From Gemmatimonadota bacterium (lineage in GTDB: Bacteria > Latescibacterota > UBA2968 > UBA8231), in assembly GCA_018660835.1 (NCBI GenBank), contig JABJJN010000103.1, positions 1-64,000 on the forward strand: a stretch of 64,000 nt of DNA, in the 5' to 3' direction. The first letter of the stretch is position 1. Every line of letters begins with the position of its first letter. A model generated the notes under the pieces. It saw nothing but the letters and a program-made list of their open reading frames with translations, ran no database searches and had not been told where the DNA came from. Shown here in pieces: positions 26,694-36,103 of the stretch. A program made the position numbers and the translations under genes.

Positions 26694-27920
26694 ATGAAGG
26701 ACAGCATCGAGCCCCGTCCCATTGCAGCGGCCGTTGCCGTTGGGATGGCAGCGTTTTTTCTGCTCTTCGGCTATGAAGCCGTGCGCAGTGCGTCCACGTC
26801 GCTCTTCGTCACGCACTACGGCGCCGAGTCGCTTCCATGGGTGATGGCTCTGTCCCCCGTGGGCACAGCGGTCATGCTTCTTGGCTACGGCCTGTGCCTG
26901 ACTCGGCTCGGCGCGCGGCAGACACTCGTCGTGACGAGTCTCGTCTCGTCCACGGTCCTGGCCCTGTGCTGGGCGGGACTGTCGGTGGCAGGTGGTCCTG
27001 CCAGCGCGCTGCTCTATGTCCTGCGCGAAGGCTACATCGTCCTCATCATCGAACAGTATTGGAGCTTCATTAACAGCACGCTGAAGCCAGCCGAAGCCAG
27101 ACGTGTCAATGGCCCCATCTGCGGGCTTGCTTCGGTGGGGGCGATCCTTGGTGGCCTGGCCGTAGGCCGCCTGGCTCCGCTTCTCGGTACGCAGCCCCTG
27201 GTTTTGATCACAGCCATTTCTCTGCTACCTGCTGCCGCCTTCGGTCTATACGCCTATCGCCTCGGGGGCACACCCCGCGGCGAGCGGGACAGTGGCGCCA
27301 GACACGGATCTCTGGCACTGGACCTGTTTGCCAAACATCGAGTGTTGGTCCATGTGGGTCTGTTCATCTTGCTCACGCAGACCGTCTCAACCGTCCTCGA
27401 CCTGTGCTTCAATGGCTTTCTCGCGGATGCCATTCCCGGTCAGGACGAGCGGACCGCCTATCTGGGGAACTTCTATGCCCTTCTCAATGGTGGCGCCTTC
27501 TTCATGCAGTTCATTGTGACACCACTGATCTTGCAGCGGGTTTCTCTGCGGCACGTGCACATGGGCATTCCCATCGTTCATATACTGGCAGCGGTCCTCG
27601 TGATTGTGGAGCCCCGACTGCTGACGGCTGCCGTAGCCTACATCGTGTTTAAGACCTTCGACTATTCCCTGTTCCGCGCGGCAAAAGAGTTGCTCTACAT
27701 GCCTCTGCCTTTTGACGCGCGCTATCGCGCCAAAGAGGTGATCGATGCCTTTGGTTATCGCGCATCCAAGGGGGTCACAGCCGGAGTCGTAGGGATCGCC
27801 TCCTCGGCAGTGGGGATCCTGCCCGCCGTGACCTATCCCGTCGTGGCACTACTGGCGGCGTTGGGCTGGCAGCGAGTCGCCCACCACGCGACGAAGGACA
27901 CATCAGGCGGCGGCGAATAA
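26694..27920 (+). CDS. MFS/nucleotide-carrier-like 12-TM transporter
   Basis: A 408-residue polytopic membrane protein with about 12 hydrophobic segments in two halves. It resembles the MFS-related ATP/ADP carrier (NTT/Npt1) superfamily in the motif REGYIVLIIEQYWSFINS and in the second-half signature FDYSLFRAAKELLYMPL and YRAKEVIDAFGYRASKG. Free-living bacteria encode such homologues without nucleotide exchange being shown. ATG 26694 is preferred over GTG 26670, which directly follows the permease stop. It follows the NatAB-like genes closely and overlaps the next, convergent gene by 18 bases at the 3' end. Confidence 0.78.
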   Translation: MKDSIEPRPIAAAVAVGMAAFFLLFGYEAVRSASTSLFVTHYGAESLPWVMALSPVGTAVMLLGYGLCLTRLGARQTLVVTSLVSSTVLALCWAGLSVAGGPASALLYVLREGYIVLIIEQYWSFINSTLKPAEARRVNGPICGLASVGAILGGLAVGRLAPLLGTQPLVLITAISLLPAAAFGLYAYRLGGTPRGERDSGARHGSLALDLFAKHRVLVHVGLFILLTQTVSTVLDLCFNGFLADAIPGQDERTAYLGNFYALLNGGAFFMQFIVTPLILQRVSLRHVHMGIPIVHILAAVLVIVEPRLLTAAVAYIVFKTFDYSLFRAAKELLYMPLPFDARYRAKEVIDAFGYRASKGVTAGVVGIASSAVGILPAVTYPVVALLAALGWQRVAHHATKDTSGGGE

Positions 27921-29447
27921 TTCTTCGAAGAGCTTCGCTGTCCGCCGACGTTCCTCAGCAATCCTGACCTCGATAAAGAGAGGCGCTCGATTGATCTGAC
28001 GCTGTGACCACGCGTGCAGGAATCCAGCATAGCTGACGGTGCGATCGTAGACGGATAGAATGTCTCGATGGTTCGTCAGTTTCCCCGTCTCCTCGTGGGG
28101 ACGGACCTGGTGGATGTGGTAACCTGTGATTCTCTTCCCAACACGCGCATACCAGTCGCCGATGGGCTGTAAATTTCCGAGGTCACCGTTGTTGCGCGCG
28201 TGCCCCACATCAAAGTGCGCCCCAATACGTCCTGCTTCGTGACCAATGCGACCTTCGACAGAATCAATCCACGCGAGGTATTCACCGATCTCTGTGGCAA
28301 ATCCCCGGTTGGGGCGATCCGCCGGCGTGCCCGGTTGGTTGTGGATATTCTCGATCGACACGCGCATACCGGCAGCGACGACGTCACGAAACAGCCCTTC
28401 ATAGCAGGAGAGGAACGACTCCCACGCCGCGGCGGGTTCACCAGCCGAATCAAACATGGTTGCTGCATTGATCTTGGGCACGTGGACTGTGAAAGAGTCG
28501 GCGGCGCATGCACGTCCATCGTCGATCTGTCGAGCCACATCCTCTGCACCGACGACGCCACTGGCCTCTTCATCCCAGATCAGATTTGGCAGGTGCCAGG
28601 ACAGATAGATCGACCGATCGTCACGCAAAGCCGCAAGTTCGTCCAACATAGCTGGTAGGTCATAACCAGCCTCTCTTGGTCGTAGCTCGAGCACGGACAG
28701 CCCCGCGTCACGTGTCTCTTTTACCGTTTCAAGAGGGTCTCCATGAATCGACCAGCCCACGGGCGAATGGTCGACATCCGCCGGTAATAGATTCTGCTCA
28801 TGGGGCCAACTGATCTGTTCGAGAACCCACTGGCCATGGGCGTCTCGCTCCAACAGACTTATTCCGGGTGGCCCGCCGAAGGCTTTCTCCGGATCGAGAC
28901 CTCGTGTCACGATCTCCTGCCCGTCGCCGATTCGGCGCGAGCGGTCGAAGTGCCGATGGCCTGCCAGATACATCTCGACGGGCTGCTCCTGCAGCCACGC
29001 TTCGATCCAACGCCGTGAATCCTGATCAAGTACGTCGGTCGGGTAGTGCGTCAGAATGACACGCGACGCGGCTGCTTGACTCTCAGCCACGAGCCAGTTC
29101 CGTTCCTCTTCCGACAGGCGCCCCGTGGAGGTGTCTGGCAGCAGAAATTGCACCTCCCCGATATGCACCGACTTGCCGCCCATGCACGGCGCCAGAATCG
29201 GCATCGCTCCTGGATCACGGAGCTCGGCATTCCCCGGTGTAAAGACCCACGGAACGTCCAGCGCCTCTGCCTCCTTGAGGAAGTTGCCAGCTGCCGTCGC
29301 CGTGCCATACGTGGTCATGTCACCGGTGACGGCGACCAGATCAGGAGCCAGTCTGTTTGCTTCAGCTATCGCCCATTGCAGAGCCGCTGCGGCTGGCGTG
29401 TCCGTTCGATCGGAAAGATGCAGGTCCGTGATCTGGATCAGTCGCAC
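27903..29447 (-). CDS. Calcineurin-like phosphoesterase fused to xylose-isomerase-like TIM barrel
   Basis: A 514-residue two-domain protein starting with GTG. Residues 1 to about 195 are a metallophosphoesterase: ITDLHLSD (D8, H10), AVTGDMTTYG (D43), PGNAELRD (N73), ILTHYPTD and LAGHRHFDRS. The GNHE motif reads GNAE, so the general-acid histidine is replaced by Ala74, which often shifts activity towards phosphodiesters or weakens it. Residues about 240-510 are a xylose isomerase/AP-endonuclease-2-like TIM barrel with metal-site candidates in VSIENIHNQPG, IGAHFDVGHARNNGD and HIHQVRPHEETGK. Such a fusion could act on a phosphorylated sugar or cyclic nucleotide and its product. It is transcribed away from the BlaI-type operon. 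Confidence 0.85.
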   Translation of the reverse strand: MRLIQITDLHLSDRTDTPAAAALQWAIAEANRLAPDLVAVTGDMTTYGTATAAGNFLKEAEALDVPWVFTPGNAELRDPGAMPILAPCMGGKSVHIGEVQFLLPDTSTGRLSEEERNWLVAESQAAASRVILTHYPTDVLDQDSRRWIEAWLQEQPVEMYLAGHRHFDRSRRIGDGQEIVTRGLDPEKAFGGPPGISLLERDAHGQWVLEQISWPHEQNLLPADVDHSPVGWSIHGDPLETVKETRDAGLSVLELRPREAGYDLPAMLDELAALRDDRSIYLSWHLPNLIWDEEASGVVGAEDVARQIDDGRACAADSFTVHVPKINAATMFDSAGEPAAAWESFLSCYEGLFRDVVAAGMRVSIENIHNQPGTPADRPNRGFATEIGEYLAWIDSVEGRIGHEAGRIGAHFDVGHARNNGDLGNLQPIGDWYARVGKRITGYHIHQVRPHEETGKLTNHRDILSVYDRTVSYAGFLHAWSQRQINRAPLFIEVRIAEERRRTAKLFEELFAAA

Positions 29448-29536
29448 GCAATCATTCTCTCAGGTGGTTTGGTCTCAGTGAAATCCAACTGTGTGCTACA
29501 TATCCTATGGAAGGTGTGGGCCCGGCGCACGCTGGT

Positions 29537-29565
29537 TTGACAAGCGACATCACTACGACGATAAT
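29537..29565 (+). promoter_or_regulatory. Sigma70-type promoter of the blaI-like operon
   Basis: A perfect -35 TTGACA (29537-29542), a 17-bp spacer and a -10 GATAAT (29560-29565). Transcription would start near 29572, at the edge of the operator dyad and about 33 nt before the repressor start codon. Confidence 0.75.
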
Positions 29566-29571
29566 ACAGTC

Positions 29572-29585
29572 GCTACACATGTAGC
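29572..29585. promoter_or_regulatory. BlaI/MecI-type operator overlapping +1
   Basis: GCTACA-CA-TGTAGC is an inverted repeat with 6-bp perfect arms and a 2-bp spacer. It keeps the TACA-N2-TGTA core of known BlaI/MecI operators and covers the predicted transcription start of the repressor gene, as expected for autorepression. Confidence 0.72.
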
Positions 29586-29604
29586 ACACTCAAGAGAGAC
29601 ATAC

Positions 29605-29997
29605 ATGCCCGCGACTGAAAAACGATCCTCCCTTCCGACCCTCACGCGAACCGAATTGGACATCATGAAGATCCTGTGGCGTGAAGGGCGCCTCGGCGCA
29701 CGAGAAGTGCACGACCGGATTGGTATCCCACACGACTGGGCGTATTCGACGACGCGTACAATTATTGAGCGCATGGTGAAAAAGGAGTTGGCGAAGAAGC
29801 GATCCTTCCACGGCCTCAATGTGTATGAAGCAGCCATCTCACGAGCCCGTGGTCTGGCGGGCATGGTAAGAGACTTCGCCGAGGGTGTTCTGGAGACAGA
29901 AGTTGCCCCCGTCGTCTCGCTCTTTGCCGACGCAAATACCCTGACGCCCGATGAGATCGCCGAACTGTATGCTGTGCTCGAAGAGCCGAGGGCATGA
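29605..29997 (+). CDS. blaI: BlaI/MecI/CopY-family transcriptional repressor
   Basis: From ATG 29605 the protein is 130 residues, normal for the family (120-140). The N-terminal winged helix is clear: LTRTELDIMKILWREGRLGAREV, then AYSTTRTIIERMVKKELAKK (recognition helix) and a wing with RSFHGLNVYEAAIS. The C-terminal dimerisation helices include GMVRDFAEGVLETE and LTPDEIAELYAVL. Family members repress their own operon and are cleaved or inactivated on signal from the partner membrane protease. The stop overlaps the ATG of that protease gene (ATGA). The operator and consensus promoter just upstream support autoregulation. The earlier in-frame codons back to 29491 lie in the promoter and are not used. 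Confidence 0.93.
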   Translation: MPATEKRSSLPTLTRTELDIMKILWREGRLGAREVHDRIGIPHDWAYSTTRTIIERMVKKELAKKRSFHGLNVYEAAISRARGLAGMVRDFAEGVLETEVAPVVSLFADANTLTPDEIAELYAVLEEPRA

Positions 29998-31538
29998 TGG
30001 TCCTGAGTATTGCGCAGATAGATGCCTGCCTCGAAATCCTGTGGCAGCTGACCCTCGCCTCCTCCGTTGTTTTTCTCATAGTGAGCAGCTTGAATCGATT
30101 CCTGCCTCGTCGCGCTGCAAATCTGCGCTATGCCCTGCTGTCACTGGTTCTGATGCGGCTGGTGGTCCCACCCAGTGTGACATCACCCGTCAGTATCGGA
30201 CACCTGCTCAATGGTGTGTCACGTATAGAGACGGCACGCCCCCCTGCCCACTCGGAGGTCCAGGCCTCCCAGCCGATCTTCTGGTCTGACGCGCGAGCCA
30301 TGCCTTCAGCGCCCGTTCCCTCGGCCCGCATCCCCTGGACTCAGACCCTGTTCGTCCTGTGGGTCCTTGGTGTGGGCGTCACAGCATGCTGGTTGATGAT
30401 GCGACGGCGAGCCTATCGACAGCTGATCTCACGCAGCGAAGAGATCACGGCCGGCCCTCCTCGCGAAACCTTCGATCGCTGGAGTCGAAGATTCGCACTA
30501 CGCCAGCCCCTTCGCCTCGTCGCTGGTACCGAGCCCGTCATGCCATTCACTCTGGGGATTCTGCATCCCGTAATCTATCTGCCAAAAAGCGTGTGGAGTG
30601 GCACCGGCCCTGCTATGATCGAGAGTGTCGTGGCACACGAACTGGCGCATGTGAAACGGTGCGATGACGTCGGGCTGATACTGCAGCAGATCGTGCAATC
30701 TCTGTTCTTCTTCCATCCTGTCGTGTGGATGACAACACGCGCCATGAGGCAAGAATGTGAGATCTCCTGCGATCAGTTGGTGCTGGCATCCGGCGACATC
30801 ACGCCCAGATCCTATGGCCAGTCACTGCTTCGGATCCTTGGCTTGCAACTGACATCCACAGCAACCGTCGCCACCATGGGGCCACATGGGAGATTGAAAA
30901 TGCGCCTGCAACAGATCATCGACGATCGACCGAATCGGCGCCTGCACTCGCCCCTCGCCGTTCTTTGTCTCTGTCTTGCAACTGCTGCGACGGCGGCCCT
31001 GTCGCCAATGACCGACGCAGATGGTCAAACGAGTACGTCACAGCCAGCTGCGGGAAGTGGTGTATTGTCCCCAACTACAGCACAGCTGAATCCCATCCCA
31101 CCCTTTGGTGCCAACACGCCACCGCCCACCCTCGATGACCTGATGCCCGGTGCACGTGTGACATCTGGTTTTGGCATGCGTCGTCATCCAATTGATGGAG
31201 ACATGGTGCATCACGATGGGATCGACCTGACCGTCGGCCGCCAGGCAGCCGTTTTCGCGCCTCGGGGCGGACGCATCGAACTCGTCGAGCAGAACTACGG
31301 CAAACAGGGTCGGATGGGGACGGTCATCGTGATCGATCACGGAGGGGGTGCGAAGACCTTCTATGCGCATCTGGCGAGCGTCAACGTCGAGGCAGGAAGC
31401 GGCGTGATGGCGGGCGACCAGATCGGTATTGCTGGATCCACGGGTGTGTCGACGGGCCCGCACCTGCACTTCGAAATCTGGATAGATGACGAGAAGATCG
31501 ATCCTACCCGTATCGGCGAGATCGTCGGCAGATGCTGA
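29994..31538 (+). CDS. BlaR1-like M56 membrane protease with C-terminal M23 (LytM) domain
   Basis: A 514-residue sensor protease. Predicted membrane segments lie near residues 14-33, 45-60, 117-134 and 320-338. Between the third and fourth is the M56 zinc protease: VVAHELAHVKRCDD (H215, E216, H219) with a likely third ligand in QECEISCD. After the fourth segment, on the outside in BlaR1 topology, a Pro/Ser-rich linker (340-380) leads to a complete M23 domain: RHPIDGDMVHHDGIDL (H407, D411), YAHL (H459) and HLHFE (H490, H492). BlaR1 carries a penicillin-binding sensor at this place; here a peptidoglycan endopeptidase-type domain replaces it. All M23 zinc and catalytic residues are present, so the domain may both bind and cut peptidoglycan cross-links. 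Coupled to the repressor by ATGA. Confidence 0.93.
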   Translation: MMVLSIAQIDACLEILWQLTLASSVVFLIVSSLNRFLPRRAANLRYALLSLVLMRLVVPPSVTSPVSIGHLLNGVSRIETARPPAHSEVQASQPIFWSDARAMPSAPVPSARIPWTQTLFVLWVLGVGVTACWLMMRRRAYRQLISRSEEITAGPPRETFDRWSRRFALRQPLRLVAGTEPVMPFTLGILHPVIYLPKSVWSGTGPAMIESVVAHELAHVKRCDDVGLILQQIVQSLFFFHPVVWMTTRAMRQECEISCDQLVLASGDITPRSYGQSLLRILGLQLTSTATVATMGPHGRLKMRLQQIIDDRPNRRLHSPLAVLCLCLATAATAALSPMTDADGQTSTSQPAAGSGVLSPTTAQLNPIPPFGANTPPPTLDDLMPGARVTSGFGMRRHPIDGDMVHHDGIDLTVGRQAAVFAPRGGRIELVEQNYGKQGRMGTVIVIDHGGGAKTFYAHLASVNVEAGSGVMAGDQIGIAGSTGVSTGPHLHFEIWIDDEKIDPTRIGEIVGRC

Positions 31539-31563
31539 CAGCCAACCAAGCTGACAACGAAAG

Positions 31564-31649
31564 AGAGCGGTCGGCGAATTAACGCCGACCGCTCTCGTCC
31601 GAACGAATCTGAGGTGCGACTACGGATCGCGCCTGCGAACCCGCAGGCG
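31564..31649. terminator. Two strong hairpins between the convergent sensor and glutamine synthetase genes
   Basis: The first hairpin has perfect 14-bp arms GAGAGCGGTCGGCG (31564-31577) and its complement (31584-31597) around AATTAA. Read on the minus strand it is followed by TTTCGTT, a short T-rich tract, so it can serve the glutamine synthetase gene as well as the sensor operon. The second hairpin, CGCCTGCG/CGCAGGCG with an AACC loop (31630-31649), lies nearer the synthetase stop. Confidence 0.75.
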
Positions 31650-31681: not shown

Positions 31682-33862
31682 CTACTTGATAAACAACATT
31701 TCCTGATACGTCGGTAGCAGCCACAAGTCGTCGGCGACGAGTCCTTCCAGCGCATCTGCGTGCTCACGAACCTTGAGCATCGCCGGCAGGATCTTCTTGC
31801 ACGCGTGCTTCGCTTCACTCAGCATCGAACCGTGCTCTGACGCCATCGTCTTCTCCAGAGCGGCCAGGCTGCTCAGCAGACCCTTCGTGAGATCTGTGAT
31901 TTCCTTCAGGACAGACAGGTCGGCGTCGACACCTGCATCCTTCAGATTCGCAGCGGCTGCCGCCAGTTCACTCTGATAACGCATCGCTGAGGGATAGATG
32001 ATCGTCTTGCCCATTTCGACAACCAGATTTGCCTCGACGGTGACGGTCATGCAATACTGCTCGAGGTAAACCTCCAGGCGACTGCCCAGTTCGCGCTTCG
32101 ACAACACCTTGTATTTGCCGAAGAGACTGACCACCTCTTTTGATGTGAGCACAGGCAATGCATCGACGGTGGTCGTCAGATTTGGCAGGCCACGTGTGGC
32201 CGCCTCCGCGTGCCACTCCTCCGAGTATCCATCGCCATTGAAAATGACCCGGCCATGCTTGTTGATGATGTCCTTCAAAAGCTTCTGCACAGCGGCATTC
32301 AGCTTCTTCGGGTCCCCCTTGGTCGCCTTCTCCAACTCGGTGGCGCAGTAGTCGAGGGACTCGGCGACGATCGTGTTCATCGCCACGAGGGGCCCGGCGA
32401 TCGATTGGTTCGACGCCACGGCGCGGAACTCGAAGCGATTACCCGTAAAGGCAAAGGGACTCGTGCGGTTGCGATCGCCAGCGTCCTTTGGCAGGGGTGG
32501 TAACACATCAACACCGACCGTGAGTGTCCCACTCTTCTTCGAAGACCTGGCACCACCCGACTTGATCTGCTCAAAGACGTCGGTCAACTGATCCCCAAGG
32601 AAGATGGAGATAATCGCCGGTGGCGCTTCGTTGGCACCAAGACGGTGATCATTTCCAGCCGAGGCAACCACAGCACGTAGCAGCGGTGCATGCAAATCGA
32701 CACCACGGATCAGCGCGGCGCAGAACACGAGGAACTGGGCGTTGGCGTGTGGTGTTTCACCCGGATCCAGCAGATTGCCCTGTGTCGAGTTGCCAAGAGA
32801 GAAATTGACGTGCTTGCCTGAACCGTTGATACCGGCAAAGGGCTTCTCGTGGGTCAGACAGGACATGCCACTCTTGTTGGCGATTCGACTCAGCGTCGTC
32901 ATGATCAACTGCTGGTGATCGGTGGCGATGTTGCTGTTCTCGAAAACAGGGGCGATCTCATACTGTCCAGGCGCGACCTCGTTGTGACGCGTCTTGATCG
33001 GAATCCCCAGCTTGAACAGCTCACGCTCGCACTCGAGCATGAATGCCAGGACCCGTTCAGGAATCGCCCCGAAATAGTGGTCGTCGAATTCCTGACCTTT
33101 CGGAGAAGGAGCACCGAAAAGCGTGCGACCTGCATTGAGCAAATCCGGGCGGGCGTAGTAGAAGTTGCGGTCTACGAGGAAATACTCCTGCTCAGGACCA
33201 GCAGTTGAACGCACCCGTCCGATTTCGTCGTGGCCAAACAGGGACAGGATACGATTGGCGTGGATATCGAGAGCCTGCATCGAACGCAGGACCGGCGTCT
33301 TCTTGTCGAGGGCCTCTCCAGTCCAAGAAATGAAAGCCGTCGGAATGCACAGAGTCGTACCATTCGGGTTCTCGAGGATGTAGGCAGGACTGGTCACATC
33401 CCATGCGGTATAACCCCGCGCCTCGAAGGTGGCGCGCAGACCACCAGAGGGGAAACTCGACGCATCGGGCTCGCCCTGAATCAGCTGCTGACCAGAAAAT
33501 TCACTCAACGCTCCACCTGCACCATCGGGCGTCAGAAAGCTATCGTGCTTCTCTGCCGTGGATCCGGTGAGTGGGTAGAAGACGTGTGTGTAATGCGTGG
33601 CGCCCTTCTCGATGGCCCAGTCCTTCATGGCCGAAGCGACGACATCAGCAACCGAGCTATCCAGCTTGGCACCTTCATCAACCGTGGCCAGGACGGACTT
33701 GTAGATCTCTTTGGGCAGGCGGATCTTCATCACCTTTGTGCTGAACACATTCGACCCGAAGAGTTCGCCGGCGGGGGTCTCGGCGAAATTCAGCGGTTCC
33801 GCTGTAGGACTGTAGATGTTGACGGCCTCAATAGCTCGCTGCCTGGCGCTACTTCCACTCAT
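31682..33862 (-). CDS. glnN: Glutamine synthetase type III
   Basis: From ATG 33862 the protein is 726 residues, the typical size of GSIII (about 700-730), far longer than GSI or GSII. GSIII features are visible: [104 protein letters not shown], and [18 protein letters not shown]. It makes glutamine from glutamate, ammonia and ATP in the cytosol. GGAGAGAG 8 nt upstream of ATG 33862 decides this start against the frame's earlier codon at 33883. It is a single-gene unit with strong hairpins downstream and a long AT-rich upstream region that probably carries nitrogen-responsive control. No PII gene is next to it. Confidence 0.95.
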
Positions 33863-34365
33863 TTTGCTCTCTCCGAGGAACAAGGGGGTTGGCGAACGTG
33901 ATGAGAAAAAGCAATAAGTGATCCATTGTAAAGTGCGGACTTACGTCGTGGATCAGCAGATTCACCGTTTATGCTGACCTGAGGCTAAGCCGTTGTTTCT
34001 ATGAGACAACGTGTGAACTCGGCCGCCGTCGCAGGGTTCTCATCCTTGATCCGGTGTTTGATTTAGGTGCATTTTCATACATAAATGTCGTAAATGACCT
34101 CAAGAAGACGTTGGTTCGACCGGCTTCAGGCCCTTAACCCAGCGATTACGTGATCTTTTCTCCTGATACCACCGCTTTTCTCACCAATAAAGAGGAATTA
34201 CAACGAAATCTGCACATCACCACGTCGCACCTCTGAGAACATCGGAAACTCCTCTATCCGAAATAAGACATTTTTGTTCGACGGTAATCGAAATGAAACA
34301 TTATTGTCTTTTTTGTCATGGCGAGATCAGGACATAAGATGAGTCAGACACCATTGTGCGGGCCC
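33863..34365. other. AT-rich intergenic region upstream of glutamine synthetase
   Basis: About 500 bp, clearly more AT-rich than the rest of the window, with no credible reading frame. It holds one perfect-to-G-T dyad, CGTTGTTTC/GAGACAACG with a TAT loop (33991-34011), and many A/T tracts such as GTCTTTTTTGTC near 34310. It must contain the minus-strand promoter of the synthetase gene; I cannot assign -35/-10 boxes with confidence. Confidence 0.5.
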
Positions 34366-34449: not shown

Positions 34450-35823
34450 CTACATATCGGGTTCGACCTCGACAGTCTGCTTGCCCAGCAATTCTGGCTG
34501 TCGGCGTAACGATTCGACGACCCGGCCATTGTGCAGCGTCCGCATCGCTTCCAGCGATACATCAAAACGATTCGCCGGATGCCATAACATCCATCCCTGC
34601 GCCCCCGCGTCGCGCGCGGCGAGAATCTGCTCTGTCACATACTGTTCGTCGAAGCCGGTGACGCCATAGGGAAATGCCTGTAACCAGGGTCGCACATCAA
34701 CACCGTGCACTTCAGCCAATGGCTTGAGACGGCGCAGGCCTGCCTGAACCAGGTAGTAGGGATAGTCGGATGGCCTCTCAATCCCCAGGAAAGGGCCAAA
34801 GAAGTGCGATGGATACAGCATGGGACTCGCCACATCCAGAAGCGGCAGGAGATCGGTTAGCTTCTGCCCCAGTCGGCGCAGATCCGCCTCGCGTCCCCAT
34901 GCAGCAACCCCGAAGAGATCTGCAGCGAGCAAAACATTTGTGTCGATCAGTCGCCCTCGGGTCCGAGCAACGAACTCGGTGATCACCTCGTGTTTAGCCA
35001 GATGCCATGTGTCGAAGTCGAAGAGCGCGTCCGCCAGATCGCCCTCCGTAGGGAATCTGACATAGTCCAACTGAATCTCGTCTACACCAAATCGTGAGAC
35101 CTCTGTCACGATCTCAAGCAGATAATCCTGCACCTGCGGCAGAGACGGGTCGAGCCATCCCTTTCCCCACGGGGCACCATCGCCTGCCAGCGACCGCGGC
35201 CGCAATTCGGGTCGTACTGCGGCAAGTCGTTCATCGTAGAAACAAGTGAGTCGCGCCACCACATGCAGACGTCGCTTGTGCAGTTCGCGAACCAATGCCC
35301 GCGGCCGACGAATGGGCGCAAGCGAGTCGACCTGCGTCGCCAGAGCAAGGGGAACCCGTGATGGATAGCTGAGATCGCCCTGCCGGTCCTTGATGTCGAA
35401 GATGATCGTGTTGCCACCAACAGCGATCAACGAATCTGCCAGAGCCAGTATGCGTGCACTTCCCGCTGTTCGTGCAGTCACGTACAGGCCACGCACCTCC
35501 GTGCCATCCGTCGCGATGCGTCCACGTGAACCCGACGCGAGTGGAACATGCAGCGTTTGCCCCGGCATCAGCCGATCTGAATCGAACGAACTGGCGACCC
35601 GGATGGCCTCAGCCAACTCACCCGTCGTATAAAAGTCGGTTGCCGGAAGTAGCCGCGCCGCGATACCCAACAGCGATTCTCCACGCCGAACGACGACGAC
35701 AGAATCACTCTCAGAGTCCAGATATTGATCAGACTCGTCGTATTCAGCTGCCCTTGCGTTCTCCGGGCCAGCGAGGCAGAGCAGCGCCAAGCAAATGATC
35801 ACAATCTGCAAACAGGCCGTCAT
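34450..35823 (-). CDS. Secreted putative glycoside hydrolase (DUF4015) with LysM-like domain
   Basis: From ATG 35823 the protein is 457 residues with a signal peptide (MTACLQIVIICLALLCLAGP, cleavage near ENARAAEY). A LysM-like module follows: VVVVRRGESLLGIAARLL to SDRLMPGQTLHVPL, expected to bind peptidoglycan or another glycan. The catalytic part is a TIM-barrel of the DUF4015/GHL13 type: VRGLYVTARTAGSA, NTIIFDIKDRQGDLSYPS, VVARLTCFYDERLA, DEIQLDYVRFPTEG and LDVASPMLYPSHFFG. The Asp in QLDYVRFP is the usual catalytic-site position in the related families. The substrate is unknown, possibly cell-wall glycan. The frame is open upstream to 35955 (GTG), but those 44 residues would precede the signal peptide, so the internal ATG is preferred, without a good ribosome site. 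Confidence 0.85.
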   Translation of the reverse strand: MTACLQIVIICLALLCLAGPENARAAEYDESDQYLDSESDSVVVVRRGESLLGIAARLLPATDFYTTGELAEAIRVASSFDSDRLMPGQTLHVPLASGSRGRIATDGTEVRGLYVTARTAGSARILALADSLIAVGGNTIIFDIKDRQGDLSYPSRVPLALATQVDSLAPIRRPRALVRELHKRRLHVVARLTCFYDERLAAVRPELRPRSLAGDGAPWGKGWLDPSLPQVQDYLLEIVTEVSRFGVDEIQLDYVRFPTEGDLADALFDFDTWHLAKHEVITEFVARTRGRLIDTNVLLAADLFGVAAWGREADLRRLGQKLTDLLPLLDVASPMLYPSHFFGPFLGIERPSDYPYYLVQAGLRRLKPLAEVHGVDVRPWLQAFPYGVTGFDEQYVTEQILAARDAGAQGWMLWHPANRFDVSLEAMRTLHNGRVVESLRRQPELLGKQTVEVEPDM

Positions 35824-36103
35824 AATTCGTCGGGCCGCGGTTGGCAGATACGCGGGGGCAGGTCGATGCAAAACGGCAGCCAGAGTCAGGGCGGCGGCGT
35901 GCGACAGGGAATTCGTCAGTGTTGGATCCATAGGTGTTGGCTGGTCGAGACGCACTCTTCAGTGGCCGCGAAATATGTAAAAATTGTCATAAAAACAGGC
36001 ACTTACGTAAGTTACGGATGTCCTGGCAGATCGGCAAGAATATCCCAGTCAAACAGCTGGTTGCCATGACAGCGCGGGCTGCCACACCAGTGTATTTCGG
36101 TCC

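Follow-up and report, generated by a model that had tools for sequence, protein, structure and literature searches.

We analysed a 64,000-nucleotide stretch of DNA (the window; contig JABJJN010000103.1 of assembly GCA_018660835.1) from a bacterium deposited as Gemmatimonadota and placed by GTDB in the Latescibacterota. On its forward strand, a gene for a BlaI-family repressor is followed directly by a gene for a membrane protein in which a BlaR1-type M56 protease is fused to an M23/LytM domain, the fold of peptidoglycan endopeptidases. The first-pass annotation, made from the letters alone, had proposed a BlaI/BlaR1-like circuit with an autoregulatory promoter and operator, and the parts, their order, their conserved residues and their recurrence elsewhere support that proposal. 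On balance, and with modest confidence, we favour the reading that the two genes form an autoregulated signalling unit of the BlaI/BlaR1 kind, with the place of the penicillin-binding sensor taken by an M23/LytM domain that lies outside the inner membrane.

The operon starts, as first annotated, with a sigma-70-type promoter at 29537-29565 (+), composed of a -35 TTGACA (29537-29542), 17 nucleotides (nt) and a -10 GATAAT (29560-29565). It matches 11 of 12 consensus positions and ranks top of three promoter-like sites between 29440 and 31700 (shuffle mean 0.8). The closest relative, L059, an unclassified metagenome-assembled genome (MAG), has the identical TTGACA-17-GATAAT. A predicted BlaI-type operator, GCTACA-CA-TGTAGC (GCTACACATGTAGC, 29572-29585, +), lies over the expected +1, where it had been claimed; its TACA-N2-TGTA core at 29574-29583 is separated from the -10 by 8 nt, which would place it on the operon's own promoter. 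Allowing up to two mismatches, GCTACACATGTAGC is the sole match in the window, itself with none, and shuffled sequences average 1.17 such matches. A test of the dyad alone is not significant (6 of 9 pairs, p ~0.48); what makes the operator significant is its motif score, a match at 10 of 10 arm positions that 0 of 1000 shuffles reached at the printed precision.

The repressor gene (29605-29997, +; ATG at 29605, stop at 29995-29997) encodes 130 residues with a Penicillinase_R winged-helix domain (PF03965, E=6.8e-25, 88 bits against a cut-off of 22.6), so the BlaI-type assignment stands, and the protein matches MecI and BlaI structures. The S. aureus BlaI cleavage site is reported as Asn101-Phe102 (PMC9834060). 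In an alignment with MecI, F107 of the window protein falls on that scissile Phe102 (P1', in the dimerisation domain), and all 23 BlaI proteins linked to fusions carry Phe at this position.

The fusion gene (29994-31538, +) begins at an ATG that overlaps the BlaI stop as ATGA, coupling it translationally to the repressor as annotated, and encodes 514 residues, its own stop ending at 31538. The M56 domain spans residues 15-307 (30036-30914, +; PF05569, E=6.6e-39), and a profile of this part matched solely two BlaR1 sequences at E<=0.001 (8EXP, E=4.7e-25). BlaR1 has the zinc-binding and supporting residues H201, H205, D210, E242, D246, Y261 and R294 (PMC9834060). Their counterparts in the window protein, H215ExxH219, D224, E256xxxD260, Y274 and R304, are all present and invariant over the aligned rows. 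The NCBIfam model blaR1_generic scores 95 bits against a cut-off of 400 and covers residues 21-342 alone, so that the protein resembles the front half of BlaR1 without the BlaR1 sensor. Neither Pfam nor NCBIfam found a transpeptidase or penicillin-binding (SxxK) domain in the window fusion; an M23 domain was found instead.

That M23/LytM domain (residues 406-504; 31209-31505, +) is identified by PF01551 (E=1.1e-25), by fold and by residue tally. The HxxxD and HxH zinc motif and the catalytic histidine pair are all present, at the five positions first listed: H407, D411 and H492, which we take from LytM to be zinc ligands, and H459 and H490, presumably catalytic. Searched against the PDB with Foldseek, the window protein matched M23 structures (best ShyA, 6UE4, E=5e-10) and BlaR1 (8EXQ, E=1.2e-7).

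An AlphaFold2 model was built from a 17-row alignment (loci of 16 distinct genomes, one entered twice). Its mean predicted local distance difference test score (pLDDT) is 75.1 and its predicted template modelling score (pTM) 0.55; the protease and M23 parts are mostly above 80 in pLDDT, and the loop at 75-111 and the linker at 337-376 are below 50. Helices are modelled at 6-36, 42-57, 115-147 and 320-335, and groups of arginines (39-40, 137-139 and 312-316) would mark the cytosolic sides under the topology of BlaR1, whose N and C termini both lie outside (Nout/Cout; PMC9834060). Hydropathy alone additionally flags 226-244, which by alignment lies inside the protease part. We therefore predict four transmembrane (TM) helices, as first annotated, in the Nout/Cout arrangement of BlaR1. 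TM4 is predicted at residues 320-337 (30951-31004, +; model, hydropathy and alignment), followed by the family's P338-M339, and the M23 domain would stand outside the membrane rather than in the cytosol. A predicted extracytoplasmic loop at residues 58-115 (30165-30338, +; model and hydropathy) occupies the position of extracellular loop 1 (EL1) of BlaR1.

Recurrence of the fusion and its pairing with BlaI

The first pass had mentioned that M23/M56 fusions occur elsewhere, and we counted at least 25 loci: the window, L059 (its fusion cut off by a contig end), the Gemmatimonadota locus L061, and 22 in the phylum of genome G108, which come from 21 genomes since G212 has two. KSB1 is included in G108's phylum on the basis of L060 alone (candidate division KSB1 bacterium isolate Zod_Metabat.1197), which is identical to G212:C221 over the compared part. 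The fusions are 24-49% identical to the window protein. With the window protein as query, full-length matches among 147 related genomes occur in its own genome (G000) and G108 only. A search of 386 genomes at E<=1e-30 returned the same two plus a match in G316 that covers M56 and leaves out M23. In the 82 genomes of G108's phylum 26 match at E<=1e-28, part of them non-fusions, and a profile search centred on G108 over 388 genomes gave 25 at E<=1e-60, all within those 82 (three candidates were scored per genome in the 386- and 388-genome searches). Public genome contigs scanned with the M56 part yielded at least 80 loci, with M23 in 3 of the 80 listed (L059, L060 and L061).

Whether a BlaI gene always adjoins the fusion had been posed as a check. 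In all 23 testable loci BlaI is the gene that immediately precedes the fusion, in the same orientation; in the remaining two, G181 and G189, the contigs end inside M56. No recurrent neighbour other than BlaI was seen across the compared loci, judged by eye from first residues without clustering. Two fusions are damaged: in G201 (L197) most of M56 is gone, with only its end left beside BlaI and M23, and in G158 (L142) M56 is split by an in-frame stop. The M56-M23 gene of G162 has another M23 gene directly behind it (L143:10482-11069), the sole candidate for an extra operon member that we noticed.

In a tree of 42 M56 rows, all 18 fusions included belong to a single group of 22 (support 100/98), and the two other M56 proteins of the window's own genome fall elsewhere. 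The remaining four of that group, all in G108's phylum (L155, L156, L157 and L158, from G170, G175, G173 and G171), have no M23 match; a C-terminal region of about 240-290 residues replaces M23 (that of G175 is cut by a contig end), and no Pfam domain was named there in the two members scanned. These appear to be cases of a swapped sensor. The window, L059 and L061 cluster in this tree (86/78), and in another only the pairing of the window with L059 is firm (97/86). The unit has the look of an old subfamily that is common in G108's phylum and turns up sporadically outside it. The remaining 63 genomes of the phylum to which the window belongs, many of them incomplete, gave no match at E<=1e-28, so that the fusion was likely gained horizontally.

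Operator, regulon and neighbouring genes

The pairing with an operator was followed in 16 of the 25 loci by taking, ahead of each BlaI gene, the sigma-70 match with the highest score (9 to 11 of 12 positions in all 16) and scoring the next 47 nt for CTACA-N(1-2)-TGTAG, a motif taken from the window itself. G155 was left out, as were G108, G181 and G189, where the contig stops too soon; the promoters of G208, G161, G188, G156 and G201 look alike by eye and stand outside this statistic. The summed score over the 16 loci is 137; 1000 dinucleotide shuffles average 103 and reach 113 at most. The expectation that homologues share the operator thus holds for the pooled promoters and fails singly for two of them, G202 and G158, to which we return below; G159, G174 and G184 reach p values of 0.06 to 0.11. 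A plain dyad test is weak, non-significant at most single loci and under 0.02 at 3 of 16, and significance per locus by dyad was dropped for the motif test. In L059 the promoter is followed by CTCGCTACAGATGTGGCGAG. The spacer is N2 in the window and L059 and N1 in the other 14 loci, so what the loci share is a kind of operator rather than one sequence.

A genome-wide dyad scan had been suggested as a route to a wider regulon, and none emerged. The exact window operator, GCTACANNTGTAGC, occurs once in the 7.1 Mb assembly, at its own promoter. Six sites with one mismatch to GCTACANNTGTAGC lie outside the window, five inside called open reading frames (ORFs) and the sixth intergenic, beside a gene read as fliG by eye only; we take all six as chance. 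The pattern CTACANNTGTAG has a further site at C97:54332 (that is, CTACACATGTAG, L171:1501-1512, on contig C97 of G000), where the operator core stops 12 nt short of the ATG that starts an HDOD-domain gene. This may be chance, and we do not claim it as a BlaI target because 3 to 4 CTACANNTGTAG sites are expected by chance in 7 Mb (a hand estimate that assumes 60% G+C). Across seven genomes of G108's phylum, TACTACANNNTAGTA lies at the fusion promoter in G184, G183, G159 and G212 and is absent from G158, G214 and G108; a second site in G212 is inside a mechanically called 95-residue ORF, and the next gene has its 3' end 69 nt away. Because strict operator patterns match almost only the own promoter, the likeliest BlaI target is the unit itself, in what looks like a regulon of one.

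Upstream of the promoter, GTGTGCTACAT (29491-29501) is a perfect inverted copy of the operator's downstream half (29579-29589) and a possible second BlaI half-site; an 11-nt perfect inverted pair arises in 17 of 5000 shuffles of the 201-nt region holding it. It sits between the BlaI/M56-M23 unit and a divergent gene (27903-29447, -) that encodes a calcineurin-like phosphoesterase fused to an apurinic/apyrimidinic (AP)-endonuclease-type TIM barrel. Through GTGTGCTACAT, BlaI might touch the promoter of this gene too; no good sigma-70 match was found on its strand (best 8 of 12).

Downstream, a strong hairpin of 14 pairs (31563-31596) lies between the convergent fusion and glutamine synthetase genes and scores as a minus-strand terminator. 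The glutamine synthetase III gene (31682-33883, -) has a match at E<=1e-100 in 8 of 47 genomes of the class, the own genome included, and none at that threshold in the same-genus genome G001, a distribution as patchy as that of the fusion. Contamination of the assembly is 7.98%, and a misbinned contig was considered and rejected; we take the contig as native because this glutamine synthetase III is 81% identical to that of the same-class genome G036. Further along, a gene at 34450-35955 (-) encodes a DUF4015 putative glycosyl hydrolase domain, with an N-terminal stretch that is LysM-like by eye. No beta-lactamase or penicillin-binding protein (PBP) was found among the eight neighbouring ORFs scanned.

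What the M23 domain may do

The M23 active site could be compared in 24 proteins, the window included; L059 is unreadable, and an extra degenerate M23-like stretch of G155 was left out of the tally. None of the 24 has lost any of the three zinc ligands. A catalytic histidine is lost in 8 of 24, or 9 counting G156: His459 is replaced by Gln in six (G108, G158, G159, G181, G188 and G189) and by Lys in G191, and His490 by Cys in G212b. G156 is ambiguous: its motif contains an inserted residue, and the alignment counts it as intact, but Cys stands two positions ahead of H492, which it shares with its sister G212b. The His-loss proteins stand at about four places in the tree, with weak branches between them, and the catalytic His was likely lost repeatedly. 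Four loci carry two intact tandem M23 domains (L141, L147, L150 and L193, from G213, G214, G202 and G208), and G155 (L159) has one degenerate and one intact.

Because the zinc ligands are kept throughout while the catalytic His is lost in 8 or 9 proteins, the pattern suggests that selection keeps a zinc site able to bind and leaves cutting optional, which would suit a receptor, and sensing may be the function that the family shares. The first-pass statement that the window protein may cut peptidoglycan is upheld as far as its own residues go, all of which are intact; as a description of the family it is weakened by these losses.

By analogy with BlaR1, the circuit might work as follows. BlaI, bound at the operator over +1, would repress its own two-gene operon, as the anatomy of promoter and operator suggests. 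The M23 domain, judged by its family, would bind, and in the window protein probably also cleave, a peptidoglycan peptide or cross-link. In BlaR1, EL1 (residues 56-96) lies in the sensor active site, and the drug displaces it, the sensor moves and the protease responds (PMC9834060). The 58-residue loop at 58-115, in the EL1 position, could follow the same logic with a wall ligand; a conformational change would pass through the four-helix M56 part and activate the cytosolic gluzincin site, which would cut BlaI before the conserved Phe107 and derepress the operon. Since the operator search found no second target, the main output would be more of the same receptor or enzyme, in a self-amplifying or homeostatic loop. 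A more specific version, which we offer tentatively as a possibility, is a one-protein endopeptidase homeostat: by way of M56, the membrane-bound M23 domain would signal to BlaI how far it is occupied by peptidoglycan cross-links or is turning them over, and would thereby set its own amount, and the His-loss relatives would now be pure peptidoglycan receptors, parallel to the BlaR1 sensor.

Much of the same evidence can be arranged with M23 as the output. M56 would then sense membrane state, a metal or an outer-loop ligand, much as PetP may respond to copper, and would cut BlaI and induce a membrane-anchored wall endopeptidase made as part of the same protein. In favour of this stand a regulon that appears to be the operon itself, the M23 gene directly downstream in G162, the four loci that have two intact M23 domains and the fifth with one intact and one degenerate, and active sites kept whole in the window, L061 and 14 of the 22 loci in G108's phylum (13 if G156 is counted as lost). 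An enzyme kept for its activity is nevertheless hard to square with catalytic His lost in 8 or 9 of 24 proteins and a zinc ligand in none, and the four M23-less subfamily members, whose M56 is of the same kind but carries a different C-terminal region, fit interchangeable sensors. We regard this alternative as somewhat doubtful. It is improbable, in our estimate, that M56 or signal peptidase cuts after TM4 and frees M23 as a soluble periplasmic hydrolase or amidase activator, with BlaI regulation secondary: the low-confidence linker at 337-376 between TM4 and M23 would offer room for it, a signal-peptidase site has been determined in BlaR1 at Gly331 (PMC9834060), and the degenerate LytM proteins EnvC and NlpD serve as activators (PMC9662197), but we see no sequence sign of cleavage and the constant BlaI pairing points to signalling. 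It seems very improbable that the protein is simply a BlaR1 relative of the usual drug type, with a C-terminal domain that was fused on passively and plays no part in signalling. The C-terminal parts of M56 proteins do vary, and 77 of the 80 listed loci lack M23 in the stretch seen (some of these stretches break off within the M56 gene); that all 24 readable proteins, divergent as they are, retain every zinc ligand argues against a passenger.

Several observations weigh against the signalling reading that we prefer. Peptidoglycan is named as the ligand on the sole basis of the M23 domain family. The window protein has no counterpart of the BlaR1 autocleavage residue Phe284 (Ser-Phe before TM4), the aligned place being a four-residue gap; several relatives carry Phe there. 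A loop plugging the M23 groove as EL1 does in BlaR1 is not seen in the model, where the loop itself is below 50 in pLDDT, and at a pTM of 0.55 the orientation of M56 against M23 is undefined. Taken singly, the operator scores 6 in G202, below its own null mean, and 7 in G158 (p 0.43). The strict patterns lack a match even at the own promoters of G158 and G214, so looser regulon members could be missed. On the loss of catalysis, well-supported branches force one change only of the His-loss label, against the tandem-M23 rows alone, and stand-alone M23 proteins keep both His in 13 of 13, a set biased to intact sites as these were the best matches to the window protein.

Known systems

The M56-M23 architecture is already in print without a function: PMC9662197 names M56 among the catalytic domains that accompany M23, together less than 1% of hits, and states that M56 has no demonstrated role in cutting the wall. 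Among the titles and abstract openings searched, which leave most subscription papers uncovered, no description of an M56-M23/BlaI circuit was found. What appears to be new is that the M23 zinc ligands are kept while the catalytic His is sometimes lost, and that the regulon is apparently of one. Peptidoglycan-state sensing and the control of wall endopeptidases are open questions in bacteria. If our preferred reading is true, a receptor built from a wall-enzyme domain would be wired by proteolysis to one promoter in a testable two-gene system, with the natural catalytic-site variants as built-in controls. Since the arrangement recurs in other bacteria, it is a candidate through which direct sensing of the cell wall can be tested. 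BlaI/M56 would, on that reading, be a general chassis that takes different domains on its outside, the penicillin sensor being one example.

The closest known systems are BlaR1/MecR1 with BlaI/MecI of Staphylococcus and Bacillus, which share the BlaI-family repressor and the TACA-N2-TGTA operator. BlaR1 has the same M56 gluzincin HExxH...E, with equivalents of D210, D246, Y261 and R294, and an outside domain after TM4 in a four-helix Nout/Cout topology (PMC9834060), like that predicted here. Unlike BlaR1, the window protein has M23/LytM in place of the penicillin-binding transpeptidase domain, the autocleavage Phe is not conserved, and the eight neighbouring ORFs scanned hold no beta-lactamase or PBP. 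In PetR/PetP of cyanobacteria, a BlaI-type factor and a neighbouring BlaR1-type protease answer a signal other than a beta-lactam (PMC7896320), so BlaI/M56 pairs can serve such signals; that signal is copper, and the four-protein regulon with its plastocyanin and cytochrome c6 targets differs from the unit described here.

The M23 endopeptidases LytM, ShyA, MepM and Csd1 and the degenerate EnvC and NlpD share the M23 fold and zinc ligands with the window protein, which also keeps the catalytic His; unlike them, its M23 domain is joined to an M56 protease in the membrane and has a repressor as its partner. If the homeostat is real, its His-loss relatives would parallel the BlaR1 sensor, in which a relative of penicillin-binding enzymes serves as the receptor. 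For endopeptidase homeostasis the nearest functional parallel is WalRK of Bacillus subtilis, which senses the products of wall endopeptidases and adjusts the endopeptidase level (PMC7299342). WalRK does so as a two-component kinase and response regulator with sensor and enzyme in separate proteins, whereas the homeostat proposed here would join them in one.

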